Shown here: piece after piece, positions 5,828 to 17,780 of the stretch
Numbering within the stretch: the first letter of the stretch is position 1
Layout: each line of letters starts with the position of its first letter
DNA from: JBFMHD01 sp040752395 [NCBI: Candidatus Hydrogenedentota bacterium]
GTDB lineage: Bacteria; JBFMHD01
DNA length: 17,780 nt
Assembly: GCA_040752395.1 (NCBI GenBank)
Contig: JBFMHD010000028.1
Span: 1-17,780, forward strand
Direction: 5' to 3'
Notes under the pieces: generated by a model
Seen by the model: only the letters and a program-made list of their open reading frames with translations
The model's database searches: none
Told to the model about the DNA's origin: nothing
Translations under genes and position numbers: made by a program

Positions 5828-5842
5828 AACCCTCCTCTGAAA

Positions 5843-5897
5843 AAGTTCGAAGTTCGGAGTTCGGAGCTCGTATCTATTATTACGAACTCCTAACTCC
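5843..5897. repeat. Heptamer repeat pair forming an imperfect hairpin between gatA and gatB
   Basis: Four tandem seven-base units AAGTTCG, AAGTTCG, GAGTTCG, GAGCTCG occupy 5843-5870. Two units in inverted sense, CGAACTC and CTAACTC, occupy 5883-5896. Arms 5856-5870 and 5883-5897 pair at 13 of 15 positions across a 12-base loop, so the gatA-gatB transcript would form a hairpin just before the gatB ribosome site. On neither strand is it followed by a convincing T tract, so a terminator is unlikely. Confidence 0.8.
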
Positions 5898-5910
5898 TAT
5901 CTTTTTCATA

Positions 5911-7314: not shown

Positions 7315-7359
7315 TATTATTACTATATTCCTCCAGTCTTCAGTAAGGTTTCACCTATC

Positions 7360-7395
7360 TTGCTTCTTGCCTCTATATATCACCAAAGTTACGTT
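7360..7395 (+). repeat. Decayed copy of the heptamer leader element in the gatC-gatA gap
   Basis: Reads TTGCTTC (7360-7366) TTGCCTC (7367-7373), then sequence resembling the single-copy part of the elements at 11898 and 10808 (TATATATCACCAAAGTTACG against the ACTTGATATCATTAGAGTTACA type). It lacks the TTTTTCAGAGGAG end and points opposite to gat transcription, so here it cannot act as a leader for either neighbour. Confidence 0.6.
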
Positions 7396-7396
7396 A

Positions 7397-7684
7397 TTAC
7401 TCTATTATCTTCGGTACTACAAACTGGCCATCCTTTACTAAAGGTGCAATATTTAAATATTTCTCTCTATCAATACCTTGTTTAACCTCATCATTACGTG
7501 TTATGTTATAAACATCTATCGTATGAAAGGTTGGTTCAATATTTGTAGTCTCGAGTTGCTTAATCTTTTGTACATACTCAAGGATATTAGCAAGCTGTTT
7601 AGTAAAAAGTTCTTCTTCGTCATTACTAATCCCCAATCTTGCAAGGTTCGCTACATATCTTACAGTTTCTCTTGTAATACTCAT
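7397..7684 (-). CDS. gatC: Aspartyl/glutamyl-tRNA amidotransferase subunit C
   Basis: GatC wraps around and stabilises GatA-GatB. From the ATG at 7684 the product is 95 residues, the family norm, and begins MSITRETVRYVANLARLGIS, matching the GatC N-terminal helix. The end is PLVKDGQFVVPKIIE, the typical VP-containing tail. A longer frame from TTG at 7747 is possible but adds 21 residues unlike GatC, and CAGGGGTG lies just before the 7684 ATG. That TTG is better read as part of the -35 box TTGACA. First gene of gatCAB. Confidence 0.95.
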   Translation of the reverse strand: MSITRETVRYVANLARLGISNDEEELFTKQLANILEYVQKIKQLETTNIEPTFHTIDVYNITRNDEVKQGIDREKYLNIAPLVKDGQFVVPKIIE

Positions 7685-7718
7685 TTTGCACCCCTGAAAA
7701 GCGTTTTTGAAAAAATTA

Positions 7719-7747
7719 AGATTAAGAAGTAAAAGGTAAAATGTCAA
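7719..7747 (-). promoter_or_regulatory. Putative promoter of gatCAB
   Basis: TTGACA at 7747-7742 is a perfect -35 box. Seventeen bases on, TAATCT (7724-7719) is a poor -10 box (three of six). The predicted transcript would start about 28 bases before gatC. The -35 and spacing are good and the -10 is weak. Confidence 0.4.
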
Positions 7748-7820
7748 TTAAATTCTGGTCTTGTTTTTGCTTCTTTTAATTAATAACAAAATTATTTCTC
7801 TTTTTTGTAAAAATTTTTTC

Positions 7821-7850: not shown

Positions 7851-7898
7851 GTTTTTGTGTAATCCCTCGGTTATTGGTGCAGTAGAACTTATACTTTA

Positions 7899-7980
7899 GA
7901 AGCAAGAAGCAAGAAGCAAGATAACGGAAGAAGTGAGAAGTGAGAGGTATCAGAAAATAGAAGCAAGAGGCAAGAAGCAA
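7899..7980 (-). repeat. Heptamer repeat arrays, inverted copies of the leader element
   Basis: Three GAAGCAA units (7899-7919), then GATAACGGAA, two GTGAGAR units (7933-7946), GTATCAG, then GAAGCAA-GAGGCAA-GAAGCAA (7960-7980) and GACTACGG. The order GAAGCAA array, GATAACGGAAGAAGTGAGA, GGTRTCAG is the same as in 17705-17760, so this is the heptamer part of that element without its ribosome-site end. Unit counts differ between copies (three here and four there; two GTGAGA units here and one there). Confidence 0.85.
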
Positions 7981-8110: not shown

Positions 8111-9547
8111 ATGTTAAAGAAATCATTTATCTATCTACTTTTTATATTTTTTATTTCTGTTCCGCTTTTTGCCGAGTCTACTCAAGAAATAGGGAAAGTT
8201 GTTTTTGTTAAAGGTGATGAGTTTTATTTTGATATTGGCGAGACCACGGGTTTACGGCCCGGAATGAACGTTGAGGTATATAAGATAGGTTCTGAGATAA
8301 AAGACCCGAATACAGATGCTATTTTAGGCTATGAGGAAGAAAAAATAGCCAGCGGTGAAGTTATATTCGTTCGGGAACAGATAAGTTGTGCCAAAGCTAA
8401 AGACCTCTCGGCCTCCATCCAGATAAATGTAGGTGACAAAGTTGTCGCTTATCTTTTTTCGCCAGCAAAAGACGAGATTGAAGGTTATGCAGGCCCATTA
8501 CTATATAAAACAGCTCCAACAAGTCCTGATGTTATTGCAGAGTTTCTCATAGATAAATTCGAGGCAAAAGATTTTACACTTGGCGATTTTAACGGCGATG
8601 GTAGAAAAGAGATAGCTGTTACTAATGGTGAAGACATATTGTTTTATACTTATTACGGTGCTAAATTTATGCATTACTATACTTTCAAGGGCCCCTGGAA
8701 CGCTAAATTTATTGATGTTTCAGCCGGTGATTTCAATGCAAATCAAAAAGATGAATTATTCGTTACAAATAAGCCCGGAAATTTCACTCAGCTACTCGTT
8801 TATGAATTCGATACTAACAAGAACGAGTTAATTGAACTTTTTAAAACTAAAAATCGGTATGCAAATGTTGTTACGCTTAATCGTGAAAAAATACTGCTTG
8901 GCCAGGAATACGGATATACAAGCCCATTTATAGGACCTGTTCTGAGATTAATATGGAAAGGAACAAATCTAACGGGTCGAAAAATGAATCTGCCTCATGT
9001 TGATTCTTTATATGGTTTTCTACCACTGGACTTTACTGGCGACGGGTTTGACGAGTATGCTGCTCTTGATAGAGACGACTTTTTGAGACTCTATAATTCA
9101 AATAATAAAGAGATATATAAATCGCCAATGAAATACGGTGGCTCTAATATCAAAATTATCGCACGTGATAGAAAAACACAAGGATATAAAATAGATTTAA
9201 TAAGAAAAGATGACCTCGATGGTGATTTAATCCAGGAAATAATCGCTGTAAAAAATATCAGACTTATGGATAGCGCACTTTTTGCTTTAAAAGGTGGTTT
9301 GAACCCGTTCAGAGATAGCCAGATCTTTGGCCTGAAATATAAAATGGGGATGCTTGAGGTAATATGGGAAACCCAGAAACTCGGTGGTTATATATGTAAT
9401 CTTGAAATAACTGATATTAATGAAGATAATAAAAAAGACCTGCTTATCTGTATTATTACTGACTTTGATAAAAAAGGTAAATCTGTACTTCGGGCATTTG
9501 ATTTAAAAACATTACAGCTAAAAAAAACTTCTGAAACCACTAAATAG
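8111..9547 (+). CDS. Secreted FlgT-C-like / FG-GAP repeat protein
   Basis: 478 residues from the ATG at 8111, chosen because it follows GTGAGGTT by a few bases and begins a clear signal peptide (MLKKSFIYLLFIFFISVPLF, cleaved after about AES). A start at 8060 would place 17 odd residues before it and lie inside the inverted repeat. Residues about 27-105 resemble the FlgT C-terminal-type small beta domain (GKVVFVKGDEFYFDIG, then GLRPGMNVEVY, then IASGEVIFV). The rest has at least five FG-GAP/VCBS-type calcium-loop repeats: GDFNGDGRKEIAV (about 157), GDFNANQKDELFV (208), LDFTGDGFDEYAA (306), DDLDGDLIQEIIA (367) and TDINEDNKKDLLI (434). These are typical of a beta-propeller outside the cytoplasm. 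Function unknown; possibly envelope or surface assembly. The glycosyltransferase gene starts 11 bases after its stop, so they are probably cotranscribed. Confidence 0.8.
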   Translation: MLKKSFIYLLFIFFISVPLFAESTQEIGKVVFVKGDEFYFDIGETTGLRPGMNVEVYKIGSEIKDPNTDAILGYEEEKIASGEVIFVREQISCAKAKDLSASIQINVGDKVVAYLFSPAKDEIEGYAGPLLYKTAPTSPDVIAEFLIDKFEAKDFTLGDFNGDGRKEIAVTNGEDILFYTYYGAKFMHYYTFKGPWNAKFIDVSAGDFNANQKDELFVTNKPGNFTQLLVYEFDTNKNELIELFKTKNRYANVVTLNREKILLGQEYGYTSPFIGPVLRLIWKGTNLTGRKMNLPHVDSLYGFLPLDFTGDGFDEYAALDRDDFLRLYNSNNKEIYKSPMKYGGSNIKIIARDRKTQGYKIDLIRKDDLDGDLIQEIIAVKNIRLMDSALFALKGGLNPFRDSQIFGLKYKMGMLEVIWETQKLGGYICNLEITDINEDNKKDLLICIITDFDKKGKSVLRAFDLKTLQLKKTSETTK

Positions 9548-10674: not shown

Positions 10675-10793
10675 ATGAATTTCGACTCCTCATCCTAAGA
10701 CCCCTGACTCTGAGCACTACACCTATAACCATGTTAGTCGACATTCTGCATAATGTTAAATTGGAAATTTTAGCCCGTTAGATTTTGTTTATC
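10675..10793. other. Gap between glycosyltransferase and the leader element of ppx
   Basis: No gene, terminator or tRNA was seen. A short ACATT/AATGT hairpin (10741-10756) is too small to call. The stretch around 10690-10720 (GACTCCTCATCCTAAGACCC) may be decayed repeat material, but I cannot align it to a specific unit. Confidence 0.4.
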
Positions 10794-10846
10794 TTGCCTC
10801 TTGCTTTTACTTGATATTATTATAGTTACAGCGTTTTTCAGAGGAG
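10794..10846 (+). repeat. Heptamer leader element copy, with ribosome-site end, upstream of ppx
   Basis: TTGCCTC (10794-10800) and TTGCTTT (10801-10807), then a single-copy part (ACTTGATATTATTATAGTTA, then CAGCG) ending TTTTTCAGAGGAG at 10846. The same order and nearly the same sequence occur before dus and dnaB. Here the AGAGGAG is about 30 bases before the chosen ppx ATG, too far for direct use. The intervening DNA holds another heptamer array. Confidence 0.85.
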
Positions 10847-10860
10847 TAAAAATAAATTTG

Positions 10861-10881
10861 CGATTTACAATTTACAATGGA
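10861..10881 (+). repeat. Heptamer array CRATTTA spanning the ppx start codon
   Basis: CGATTTA (10861-10867), CAATTTA (10868-10874), CAATGGA (10875-10881). The third, mutated unit contains the ATG chosen as the ppx start. The array separates the AGAGGAG of the leader element from the gene, as if inserted between them. Confidence 0.55.
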
Positions 10882-11836
10882 GCAAAATGACAAAATGTCT
10901 GAATTATACTCAAGTATCGATCTTGGAACTAACACATTGCGACTCTTAATAGCAGAATTCAAATACCCATATTTACAGCCCATTGAGATGCTTATCTCTA
11001 TGCCACGAATCGGCGCTGATCTTATTAATACAAACTATATTGATACAAACTCATTAAAAAGAACTATTCATTACTTAAGAGTTTATTCTAAAATATTGAA
11101 TAATTATTCAATAAAAAACCCTATCTGTTTTGCTACCGCTTCTCTACGTTATGCGAAAAATAAAAATACTGTTCTACAAAAAATTAAGAAAGCCACAGAT
11201 CTCGAATTCACTGCAATTAGCGGTGAGAAAGAAGGCTATTTATCATTTCTTGGTGCCACTTATTCGCTTGGTTCAAAATTTAAAGAAAAATTAGTTATGG
11301 TTATAGATATAGGTGGTGGTTCAACTGAATTGTCAGTTGGTTATCCCTGCAGGAAACCAATTATCAGTCATAGTCTTCGGCTTGGCTCCTGTATGCTATG
11401 CGAAAAATTCAACCTATTCGAATACCCTGATAAAAAATCTATACTCAATGCAAAAGAATATATCATCGAGCAAATTAAAACTTTGAAAAAATTTCAATTT
11501 ACCCATTTAATAGGTGTTGCCGGAACAATTACTACATTAAAAACAATCAGTTTGAAACTTGAAATATATAAAAAATCACTTATACAGAACTCCACGCTGT
11601 CATTAAACGAGGTCTCTGAAATATATAATTTAGTAAAAATATTATCAATAAAACAAAGACTCTCTATGAAAGGGTTACCAGAGGGTAGAGCTGATGTGAT
11701 TATTGGTGGAAGTCTTATTACAAAAACAATACTTGAATACTTTGACGTTAATTCATTAATAGTTTCTGATGAGGACATAATGTATGGTGTTATATACGAA
11801 AAAGTAGGAACTAAGAAAGCCGGGTGTAGTCCGTAG
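10877..11836 (+). CDS. Exopolyphosphatase / pppGpp phosphatase family (Ppx/GppA)
   Basis: 319 residues, the short two-domain form without the C-terminal HD-like part. These enzymes remove phosphate from polyphosphate or from pppGpp; which substrate applies cannot be told here. Seen motifs of the ASKHA fold: SSIDLGTNTLRLLI (residues 12-25, phosphate 1), CFATASLRYAKN (catalytic Glu lies downstream in SGEKEGYLSFLG), VIDIGGGSTELSVG (phosphate 2), GVAGTITTLKTI, and MKGLPEGRADVIIGG. The start is uncertain: ATG 10877 lies within a heptamer array without its own ribosome site, while ATG 10895 (MSELYSSIDLG) has GGAG 12 bases upstream and would fit the family better. The last residues (about AGCSP) and the stop codon lie in the repeat element upstream of dus, so the native C-terminus seems to have been replaced. 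Confidence 0.9.
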   Translation: MEQNDKMSELYSSIDLGTNTLRLLIAEFKYPYLQPIEMLISMPRIGADLINTNYIDTNSLKRTIHYLRVYSKILNNYSIKNPICFATASLRYAKNKNTVLQKIKKATDLEFTAISGEKEGYLSFLGATYSLGSKFKEKLVMVIDIGGGSTELSVGYPCRKPIISHSLRLGSCMLCEKFNLFEYPDKKSILNAKEYIIEQIKTLKKFQFTHLIGVAGTITTLKTISLKLEIYKKSLIQNSTLSLNEVSEIYNLVKILSIKQRLSMKGLPEGRADVIIGGSLITKTILEYFDVNSLIVSDEDIMYGVIYEKVGTKKAGCSP

Positions 11837-11936
11837 CCTGTAGCCTGTAGCCCGTCCTGACACCTCTCACTTCTTCCGTTATCTTGCTTCTTGCCTCTAC
11901 TTGATATCATTAGAGTTACAATGTTTTTCAGAGGAG
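11826..11936 (+). repeat. Heptamer leader element copy, with ribosome-site end, upstream of dus
   Basis: Starts AGTCC, then GTAGCCT x2 and GTAGCCC (11833-11853), GTCCTGACACCTCTCACTTC, TTCCGTTATC, TTGCTTC-TTGCCTC (11884-11897), then the single-copy part and TTTTTCAGAGGAG (to 11936), six bases before the dus ATG. It aligns over its whole length with the minus strand of 17666-17780. The main differences are array unit numbers (two TTGCYTC here and four there; three GTAGCC here and two there). Confidence 0.92.
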
Positions 11937-11941
11937 ATGAT

Positions 11942-13042
11942 ATGCACCACCAGGCTTTATTTAATCAGAATAAAACACCTGTCTTTCTCGCACCTATGGC
12001 AGGAGTTTACGATTATCCAGTAAGAAGACTTTATAGAGAAGTCTTTGATAAACTAAAATCAAATCAAAACGATTCTTTGTATTGTTTTACCGAACTATTA
12101 AGTGCAAAGGCTTTATCTCTTAAAGATAAAAAAACTCTCTCCCTGATACCTAAAGACGAAATAAATACGAGTATCCAGCTTTTTGGTAGTTGCGAATATG
12201 ATTTTCTAAAAGCATTAGAATTTTTACAAAATAATGGAATCAATAAACCCGTTGATATAAATCTTGGTTGCTCTGTAAAAAAAGTAATGAAATCAGGTGC
12301 CGGGATTAAATTAATGGAATCACCTGATAATCTAGTTGGTATTATAAAAACTATTAAATCTCTTTTTAAACTCCCGGTCTCAGTAAAAGCAAGACTTGGT
12401 TATAAAGAAGTATTAATACTTAAAATCGCGCCTTATTTAGAAGAAGCAGGATTGGATTTTATAACATTACACCCAAGACTCGGTAAAGAAACATACGCCA
12501 ATAAACCGAGATGGGAATATATAAAATTATTAAAAGATACTCTTAAAATCCCTGTTATAGGTAACGGTAATATTACTAACACAAAACAAGCAAAAGAAAT
12601 GCTTATTCTAACAAATTGTGATGGTATTATGATAGGTCGTGGTGCTATGGGTTTATTTGATCTTCCTTATATTATATATAGTTCCATAAATGAGGCAGTG
12701 CCTCAACCCATTCTGCCATCTGATAGCTGCTATCCCATATCGCAAGAACAAACTGTACTCGCAAAAATAAAAAGTTCTGCTGAGAAAGAGACGGATGAGG
12801 CAGTGCCTCAACCCAAAATGCTATCTATCTCAGAAAGAATAAAGCTCTTTTATACCCTTATAAACTATTATCTTGAGGAATATAAAGAGAAAAAAGCCCT
12901 GGTTCAAATACGAAAACATCTATGCTGGGGTATAAAATTCTTCAAAGGAGCTAAAACTATTCGGCCAGAGATTATGGCAGCTGACTCAGTTGAAGAGATT
13001 CTTAAAATCATCTCCAGACTCGAAGTATATCTGAATTATTAA
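11942..13042 (+). CDS. dus: tRNA-dihydrouridine synthase with an in-frame repeat-derived insert
   Basis: FMN enzyme that reduces uridines in tRNA to dihydrouridine. 366 residues from ATG 11942, five bases after GAGGAG; upstream in-frame starts lie inside the repeat and are rejected. Seen: PVFLAPMAGVYDYPVRR (TIM-barrel entry), QLFGS, NLGCSVKKVMKSGAG with catalytic Cys110, VSVKARLGY, ITLHPR (His178), PVIGNGNI (residues 204-211) and IMIGRGAMGLFDLPY, then the helical C-terminal domain with QIRKHLCWGIKFFKG. DusB-like, but the subtype is not certain. Residues about 250-292 have no counterpart in Dus as I know it. They are encoded by DNA with two 21-base direct repeats and several palindromes, described separately. 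Confidence 0.93.
   Translation: MHHQALFNQNKTPVFLAPMAGVYDYPVRRLYREVFDKLKSNQNDSLYCFTELLSAKALSLKDKKTLSLIPKDEINTSIQLFGSCEYDFLKALEFLQNNGINKPVDINLGCSVKKVMKSGAGIKLMESPDNLVGIIKTIKSLFKLPVSVKARLGYKEVLILKIAPYLEEAGLDFITLHPRLGKETYANKPRWEYIKLLKDTLKIPVIGNGNITNTKQAKEMLILTNCDGIMIGRGAMGLFDLPYIIYSSINEAVPQPILPSDSCYPISQEQTVLAKIKSSAEKETDEAVPQPKMLSISERIKLFYTLINYYLEEYKEKKALVQIRKHLCWGIKFFKGAKTIRPEIMAADSVEEILKIISRLEVYLNY
12690..12815 (+). repeat. In-frame insert in dus: two 21-base direct repeats with palindromes
   Basis: The repeat ATGAGGCAGTGCCTCAACCC(A) stands at 12690-12710 and 12795-12815, offset 105 bases (35 codons), so both encode EAVPQP. Its core TGAGGCA-G-TGCCTCA is a perfect palindrome. Between them, GATAGC-T-GCTATC (12722-12734) is a second palindrome. 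The block falls between the FMN barrel and the helical domain, a position where an exposed loop could be tolerated. Confidence 0.85.
12874..12898 (+). repeat. Direct repeat, left copy (in dus 3' part)
   Basis: 25 bases identical at 24 positions to 13274-13298, exactly 400 bases away. Here it encodes EEYKEKKA within the dus helical domain and is clearly native coding sequence. Confidence 0.85.
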
Positions 13043-13084
13043 TCAAATAAAAATTCAATAGACAGAAAGAGTCAATCCTTTATT

Positions 13085-13276
13085 ATGTCAAATCATATTT
13101 CTTGCGGCAAGAGTTTATTGGACGATATTTTGAAAAACGTTTCAGTGCTAGTTCTTCCCGAACCAAATAACCGCTATTCCAAGACTGAGAGTACATCCAT
13201 ACTGAATTTTGTCCGTCAGGGTGGTGGACTTTTACTCACAGCAGACCATATTGGGTCTGATAGGGTGAATGGGTGA
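13085..13276 (+). pseudogene. Remnant of a secreted-protein domain resembling a ThuA/DUF4350-like amidotransferase fold
   Basis: 63 residues with a coherent motif, VLVLPEPNNRYSKTESTSILNFVRQGGGLLLTADHIGSDRVNG (residues 21-63). This resembles the GGGLLL-ADH-xxSDR segment of class-I glutamine-amidotransferase-like domains in secreted proteins, where a DGWDS-type continuation would be expected (from memory, not searched). It stops right after VNG, where the 25-base direct repeat begins. It lacks both an N-terminal region and a C-terminal half, and has no ribosome site. I read it as an internal fragment left by a deletion or import; a functional small protein is unlikely. Confidence 0.6.
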
Positions 13277-13298
13277 AGAATATAAAGAGAAAAAAGCC
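13274..13298 (+). repeat. Direct repeat, right copy (at the end of the remnant)
   Basis: 24 of 25 bases equal 12874-12898. The remnant's stop codon TGA (13274-13276) is its first three bases, so the remnant is cut exactly at the repeat border. Confidence 0.85.
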
Positions 13299-13367
13299 AG
13301 TTACTATAAATATTAAAGATTTTGCCTTCTTAAGTCGATTTAAATAATAGAGATTTTCTAATAAAAT

Positions 13368-17665: not shown

Positions 17666-17780
17666 CTCCTCTGAAAAACATTCTAACTCTAATAATATCA
17701 AGTAGAAGCAAGAGGCAAGAGGCAAGAAGCAAGATAACGGAAGAAGTGAGAGGTGTCAGGACAGGCTACAGGCTACGGAC
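17666..17780 (-). repeat. Heptamer leader element copy upstream of dnaB, running to the window edge
   Basis: Read on the minus strand it has GTAGCCT units, GTCCTGACACCTCTCACTTC, TTCCGTTATC, four TTGCYTC units (17732-17705), the single-copy part with TTGATATTATTAGAGTTAG, and TTTTTCAGAGGAG at 17678-17666, five bases before the dnaB start. Nearly base-for-base the same as the element before dus. The left end is likely beyond the window. Confidence 0.92.

Follow-up and report, generated by a model that had tools for sequence, protein, structure and literature searches.

Introduction

Putative mobile promoters (PMPs), reported by Matus-Garcia, Nijveen and van Passel in 2012, are said to be homologous sequences located directly upstream of non-homologous genes of one genome, in sense orientation. 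As described, mobile promoters are units of transcription. The 2012 work is cited in the available text of two later papers (PMC4596501, PMC9208149). According to the available part of its description, BrickBuilt from Porphyromonas gingivalis is a MITE with a minisatellite that varies by whole units between strains and was proposed as a possible PMP (PMC4596501). The Correia elements of Neisseria, as presented in the accessible portion of a review, are MITEs too: small dispersed repeats found immediately upstream of genes and carrying promoters and IHF sites (PMC10969869).

Other dispersed repeats are made of heptamers. In Beggiatoaceae, direct repeats of the heptamer TAACTGA lie, for the most part in sense orientation, upstream of the start codons of genes that are unrelated and in part essential; 14 of the 169 repeat sets overlap the end of the upstream ORF, and a Shine-Dalgarno sequence (SD) was found in 15 (about 10%) of the repeat-bearing intergenic regions, the repeats overlying the place of the SD (PMC4679880, available text). 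Furthermore, the excerpts available of PMC4692102 and PMC2700814 describe dispersed tandem heptamers in intergenic DNA, namely the heptamer repeats of Cyanobacteria and Xanthomonas and the heptanucleotide elements of Geobacter metallireducens.

Genes of the window and its heptamer arrays

The window, i.e. the whole stretch of DNA that was analysed, spans 17,780 nt and is AT-rich (33.6% GC). Its minus strand carries a trpE-like gene, a gene for a weakly BamD-like protein (score below the NCBIfam cut-off), maf, a nucleotidase gene, flgM, gatB-gatA-gatC and dnaB. Its plus strand encodes an FG-GAP protein, a glycosyltransferase, ppx (ORF 10877-11836), dus, a GGDEF protein and one protein of no assigned function. 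A Pfam match was obtained for 13 of the 15 proteins tested, the exceptions being proteins of 303 and 436 aa. The genes ppx, dus and dnaB, assigned via Pfam/NCBIfam, are mutually non-homologous. The best identity of GatB was 58-60% among the 80 stretches kept of at least 589 in genome contigs, and 61% in nine partly overlapping draws of genomes from unnamed phyla (198, 145, 148, 144, 9, 74, 198, 198 and 199), eight of which were run with strict E-value cuts; these draws do not imply the absence of any relative. The placement of GatB in a tree was weak.

The window contains short tandem repeats of 7-bp units arranged head to tail, mainly in intergenic DNA. Tandem Repeats Finder gave ten rows of period 7, nine of which lie in intergenic DNA (9.6% of the window) or overlap it, and identity at lag 7 is 0.354 in intergenic versus 0.280 in coding DNA.

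Repeats of other kinds occur around dus. The dus frame includes two 32-nt copies (12690-12721 and 12795-12826, 88% identity) with the palindrome TGAGGCAGTGCCTCA; they sit close to the end of the Pfam Dus match and resemble an intragenic palindromic repeat. In the interval from dus to the GGDEF gene, positions 13050-13300 appear by eye to be a fragment of another gene, which ends in a 25-nt near-copy (96%) of the dus piece 12874-12898, as if it were the remnant of an insertion or duplication.

A 38-nt leader upstream of ppx, dus and dnaB

As a preliminary description of this DNA had proposed, three related segments, here called copies A, B and C, precede ppx, dus and dnaB, each in sense orientation. 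They and the features next to them are:

10789..10846, plus strand: copy A, before ppx; short CTTGCCT/CTTGCTT array, then the 38-nt leader; tail at 10834-10846, ATG at 10877
10855..10878, plus strand: (ATTTACA)n array that separates the SD of copy A from the ppx start (Tandem Repeats Finder)
10858-10890, plus strand: possible 10-codon TTG mini-ORF (LRFTIYNGAK*), ending 4 nt before ATG 10895
11826..11936, plus strand: copy B, before dus; (GTAGCCT)n, CTGACACCTCTCACTTCTTCCGTTAT, (CTTGCTT)n, then the 38-nt leader; SD 5 nt before ATG 11942
11834..11836, plus strand: ppx stop codon TAG, within the first heptamers of copy B
17666..17780, minus strand: copy C, before dnaB; like B minus one GTAGCCT unit, plus two CTTGCCT-type units; SD 4 nt before ATG 17661

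The part that is not repeated in tandem is a leader of about 38 nt (ACTTGATATYATTAKAGTTASARYGTTTTTCAGAGGAG), present three times in the window and ending in the SD. The preliminary description had put this single-copy part at about 50 bases, of which the remainder belongs to the heptamer array, and was right in extending the likeness of two copies beyond 100 bases. The three leaders are all in sense orientation and at most 30 nt from the starts of their genes. A scan of the window gave no further one, the next-best score being 17 versus 40 for copies A, B and C.

Identity amounts to 88% between A and B (58 nt), 91% between A and C (55 nt) and 93% between B and C (55-58 ungapped nt). Over their whole length, B and C align in 108 gap-free columns, 105 of them identical and three with substitutions, and differ by three gaps (7, 14 and 1 nt). 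The two longer gaps correspond to whole heptamers and the shortest lies between SD and ATG, while substitutions affect none of the 60 columns in the heptamer arrays versus three of the 48 from the arrays to the ATG. The likeness is far above chance. Judged from these alignments, B and C are copies by descent and not convergent sites, and copy A is older or partial. The right end is common to the copies, and their left ends vary. Copy B starts inside ppx, the last codons of which are element sequence. As for the (ATTTACA)n interval between copy A and ppx, a role of the TTG mini-ORF before ppx would be speculative.

The match between B and C starts at GTCCGTAG and still holds at the last base of the window, so copy C may extend past it. 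Within the three copies and their near flanks, no pair of inverted repeats of at least 8 nt was found, the far end of C lying beyond the window; hence, nothing marks the element as a transposable element. An end inside copy C is also typical of assemblies at repeats and might betray a repeat-induced misjoin in a metagenome contig, although the end of the window may be an arbitrary cut. Such an artefact is very improbable in view of the intact neighbouring genes that copies A and B join, of the substitutions and heptamer counts by which the copies differ, and of the Pfam matches reported above for most of the proteins.

The shared tail as a probable Shine-Dalgarno sequence

All three copies end in TTTTTCAGAGGAG, as had been noticed before. 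This 13-base tail occurs exactly four times in the window, at 10834-10846 and 11924-11936 on the plus strand and at 17666-17678 and 5832-5844 on the minus strand. The last occurrence precedes gatB and had been given as 5842-5830; the string is there exactly, with its coordinates two positions off.

5832..5844, minus strand: D, tail TTTTTCAGAGGAG of gatB; SD 4 nt before ATG 5827

The tail is followed by the start codon after 30 nt for ppx, 5 nt for dus, 4 nt for dnaB and 4 nt for gatB, and is in sense orientation in all four cases; a random intergenic position and strand has a probability of 0.10 of being at most 30 nt from a same-strand start. By eye, it is the only good SD within 60 nt before the starts of dus, dnaB and gatB. 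Position and sequence make TTTTTCAGAGGAG the likely SD of these three genes.

Exact copies of the tail are rare elsewhere: none was present in 80 other loci, and 18 unrelated genomes (those of 18 of these 80 loci; about 51 Mb, a hand sum of rounded genome sizes) contained six, distributed over five genomes. When up to three mismatches were allowed, the window gave 22 matches versus a shuffle mean of 10.8, and none of 200 shuffles reached 22. Moreover, a 15-base motif scored at 13/15 or better picked out only ppx, dus, dnaB and gatB among the 15 leaders of the window.

The gatB leader has only the 13-base tail in common with the copies as a set, and matches dnaB over 22 nt with one mismatch through ATGGA. 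For the 7 bases before GAGGAG in gatB, the chance p is about 0.0002 per leader and 0.003 over 14 genes, so gatB is likely, but not certain, to belong to the tail-bearing set.

Heptamer arrays without the leader

Arrays related to those of the copies, or made of other heptamers, also occur in the gat region:

7898..7942, minus strand: E, the 5' array of B/C lacking the leader, on the strand of gatC and about 213 nt upstream of that gene; 36/38 against B and 42/45 against C
7356..7375, plus strand: F, 20 nt identical to the array of B, antisense to gatA in the gatC-gatA gap
5845..5900, minus strand: inverted (AGTTCGG)n/(AACTCCT)n arrays before the gatB tail, with a strong predicted hairpin

The element is a mosaic, found as array alone (upstream of gatC and, in antisense, before gatA), as array plus the leader of about 38 nt (ppx, dus and dnaB) or as other heptamers plus the tail (gatB). 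The sequence that follows F weakly suggests a degenerate leader. Its similarity to the leaders was matched by 11 of 500 shuffles for B, 126 for A and 213 for C; being not significant against A or C, this antisense candidate was rejected.

The 81-nt leader of gatB has a predicted fold of -29.2 kcal/mol (z -5.6), in an array that is not common to the other copies. Its hairpin is followed by the T-run of the tail and could form an attenuator within gatCAB; a terminator scan listed none at the hairpin (5845-5900).

Such a distribution raises the possibility that these are ordinary heptamer arrays or MITE-like intergenic filler. The SD would then be the edge of the gene's own leader, carried along by a few local duplications without regulatory meaning. 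The array devoid of leader (E), the antisense array (F) and the other heptamers before gatB all agree with this, as do, in the available text of both sources, the over-representation of heptameric repeats in many bacterial genomes (PMC4692102) and their large number in Beggiatoaceae (PMC4679880). Against filler, the 38-nt leader is not heptameric and yet precedes three unrelated genes in a form shared as far as the SD, with a suitable spacing to the start in two of them. We consider this explanation possible but rather doubtful.

The preliminary description is supported in its proposal of a dispersed copied segment that provides, with its 3' end, the likely SD for housekeeping genes unrelated to each other. 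The array half, in contrast, also occurs away from leaders. The two parts differ likewise when placement is considered, copies lying at random or in antisense having been named as the observation that would speak against a link with ribosome binding sites: E is far from a start and F is antisense, while the leader (3/3) and the tail (4/4) are in sense orientation near starts.

Promoter and RNA structure candidates

Two variants of a promoter-like string were read from the sequence of the copies:

11902..11910, plus strand: candidate extended -10 TGATATCAT of copy B
10812-10820, plus strand, and 17700-17692, minus strand: candidate extended -10 TGATATTAT of copies A and C, respectively

The string TGATATYAT that they represent is present in A, B and C, 31 nt before the ATG in the case of dus; going by the general consensus, we take it to be an extended -10 in form. 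The arrays of B and C also include CTGACA-17-TATCTT (listed by a scan for C, seen by eye for B). Since a two-hexamer promoter scan of the whole window gave 99 sites versus 74 expected, neither string counts as promoter evidence. The reluctance of the preliminary description to name a promoter was justified; TGATATYAT is an alternative that it had not mentioned. By eye, a promoter-like pair, TTGACA-17-TAATCT, can be seen at gatC (7684-7760, minus strand).

Compared with shuffles, the leaders of B (z +3.1) and C (z +1.7) are less structured, and that of A does not differ (z -0.3). The leaders gave no Rfam match at the gathering score. Together, single-sequence folding and the Rfam result speak against a structured cis-regulatory RNA for A-C, and this reading was rejected.

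These data also bear on a selected regulatory leader. In this view ppx, dus, dnaB and gatB would be preceded by one regulon site (operator, sRNA or translational control), kept alike by its function. In favour of such a site, GTTTTTCAGAGGAG is free of substitutions across A, B and C, and the leader of gatC has a related sequence, CGCTTTTCAGGGGTG, which resembles the tail (11/15, shuffle p 0.016). Nevertheless, between B and C the likeness of the arrays equals or exceeds that of the leader. Selection for a site leaves this unexplained, and recent copying explains it better. In addition, the gene names point to no evident common pathway and the leaders have no stable fold. A common regulon site is accordingly quite unlikely.

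Controls and distribution

Repeat pairs of 40-400 nt were collected from 92 other loci (about 1.37 Mb; 1.38 Mb with the window). Including the window, 41 pairs were found in 17 records. Both 3' ends lie near candidate starts for three pairs in the window versus two in the 92 other loci, in a test that is lenient since the starts are candidates from mechanical ORFs. Neither of these two control pairs is of the leader type: one end of the first (L003) is inside gatB, and the second (L034) is a G-rich stem-loop, one copy of which lies between two gene 3' ends. The latter, from a Nitrospirae bin (8284-8346 and 11552-11611, 83% over 64 nt), is a dispersed stem-loop repeat unrelated to the leaders.

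Searches with exact degenerate patterns, which diverged relatives would escape, gave no match to the leader in 84,980 species genomes or in IMG/VR. A pattern without the SD tail had five matches in IMG/VR, all to one same unrelated stretch that lacks this tail, and these were discarded. A blastn search of plasmids and phages with a 111-nt query, which would likewise miss diverged relatives, was negative.

Comparison with known elements

Copies A, B and C share with PMPs the homologous segment upstream of non-homologous genes, as well as the sense orientation and closeness to the start codon, seen in 3/3 leaders and 4/4 tails at 4-30 nt. Unlike PMPs, the unit copied here comprises the SD as well and adjoins heptamer arrays; three copies of it were seen, and its promoter is putative. 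The repeats of Beggiatoaceae, as far as the text available goes, consist of one heptamer and related ones and overlie the SD place, whereas the window contains several unlike heptamers, followed by a fixed non-repeat leader with the SD. For the heptamers covered by the available portions of PMC4692102 and PMC2700814, those of Geobacter occurring also within genes, no fixed SD-bearing leader is described.

Tandem repeats that lie near genes and are accompanied by fixed flanking units recall BrickBuilt, and the small dispersed repeats directly before genes recall the Correia elements, in so far as the available texts portray them. BrickBuilt, however, is described there with 23-nt units and small inverted-repeat ends, and the terminal inverted repeats of MITEs of the Correia or BrickBuilt type have no counterpart of at least 8 nt within the copies studied here. 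The words 'ribosome', 'start codon' and 'Shine-Dalgarno' do not occur in the text of the Correia review (PMC10969869). No SD-bearing mobile leader was seen in the literature searched, which is weak evidence of absence. The anatomy of the element is that expected of a putative mobile promoter which includes the SD and is linked to heptamer arrays.

A possible portable leader spread with heptamer arrays

The explanation that we prefer, at about even chances, is a portable leader of about 38 nt ending in an SD, copied with the adjoining 7-bp arrays before unrelated genes. The leader, ending in TGATATTATTAGAGTTACAATGTTTTTCAGAGGAG and variants, would reach new genes together with the arrays. The latter would be the recombinogenic part, one array interacting with another by gene conversion or ectopic recombination, besides slippage, and the leader would travel along with them. 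A copy whose SD landed just before a start codon would be kept, since it would allow translation to start and might also bring an extended -10 promoter. With the putative extended -10, the 5' UTR would be about 25 nt long and little structured. Between B and C, change has been mainly by whole heptamers. The element would thus act like a putative mobile promoter that also brings a ribosome binding site.

Several observations weigh against a portable leader. The three leaders come from one window, two of them flank a single gene and all lie within 7 kb; being so few and so close, they could result from local duplication, which would suffice. Furthermore, the SD is displaced by 30 nt from the ppx start, arrays occur without the leader and in antisense, gatB has just 13 nt in common with the copies, and no transposon-like ends were found within them. 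By extrapolation, three leaders in 17.8 kb, one of them cut by the end of the window, suggest many copies genome-wide. This number, like the promoter and the way in which the element spreads, is inferred. A stronger version appears unlikely: an extended -10 plus SD cassette, spread on heptamer arrays in hundreds of copies, that would provide a common leader for replication, translation and polyphosphate genes, with expression tuned by the number of heptamers.

If the portable leader is real, a copied unit with its ribosome binding site would rewire a gene at once in its transcription and its translation. Heptamer arrays could plausibly carry such a unit, and the arrays of this kind in bacteria, which are poorly explained, would gain a role open to testing.
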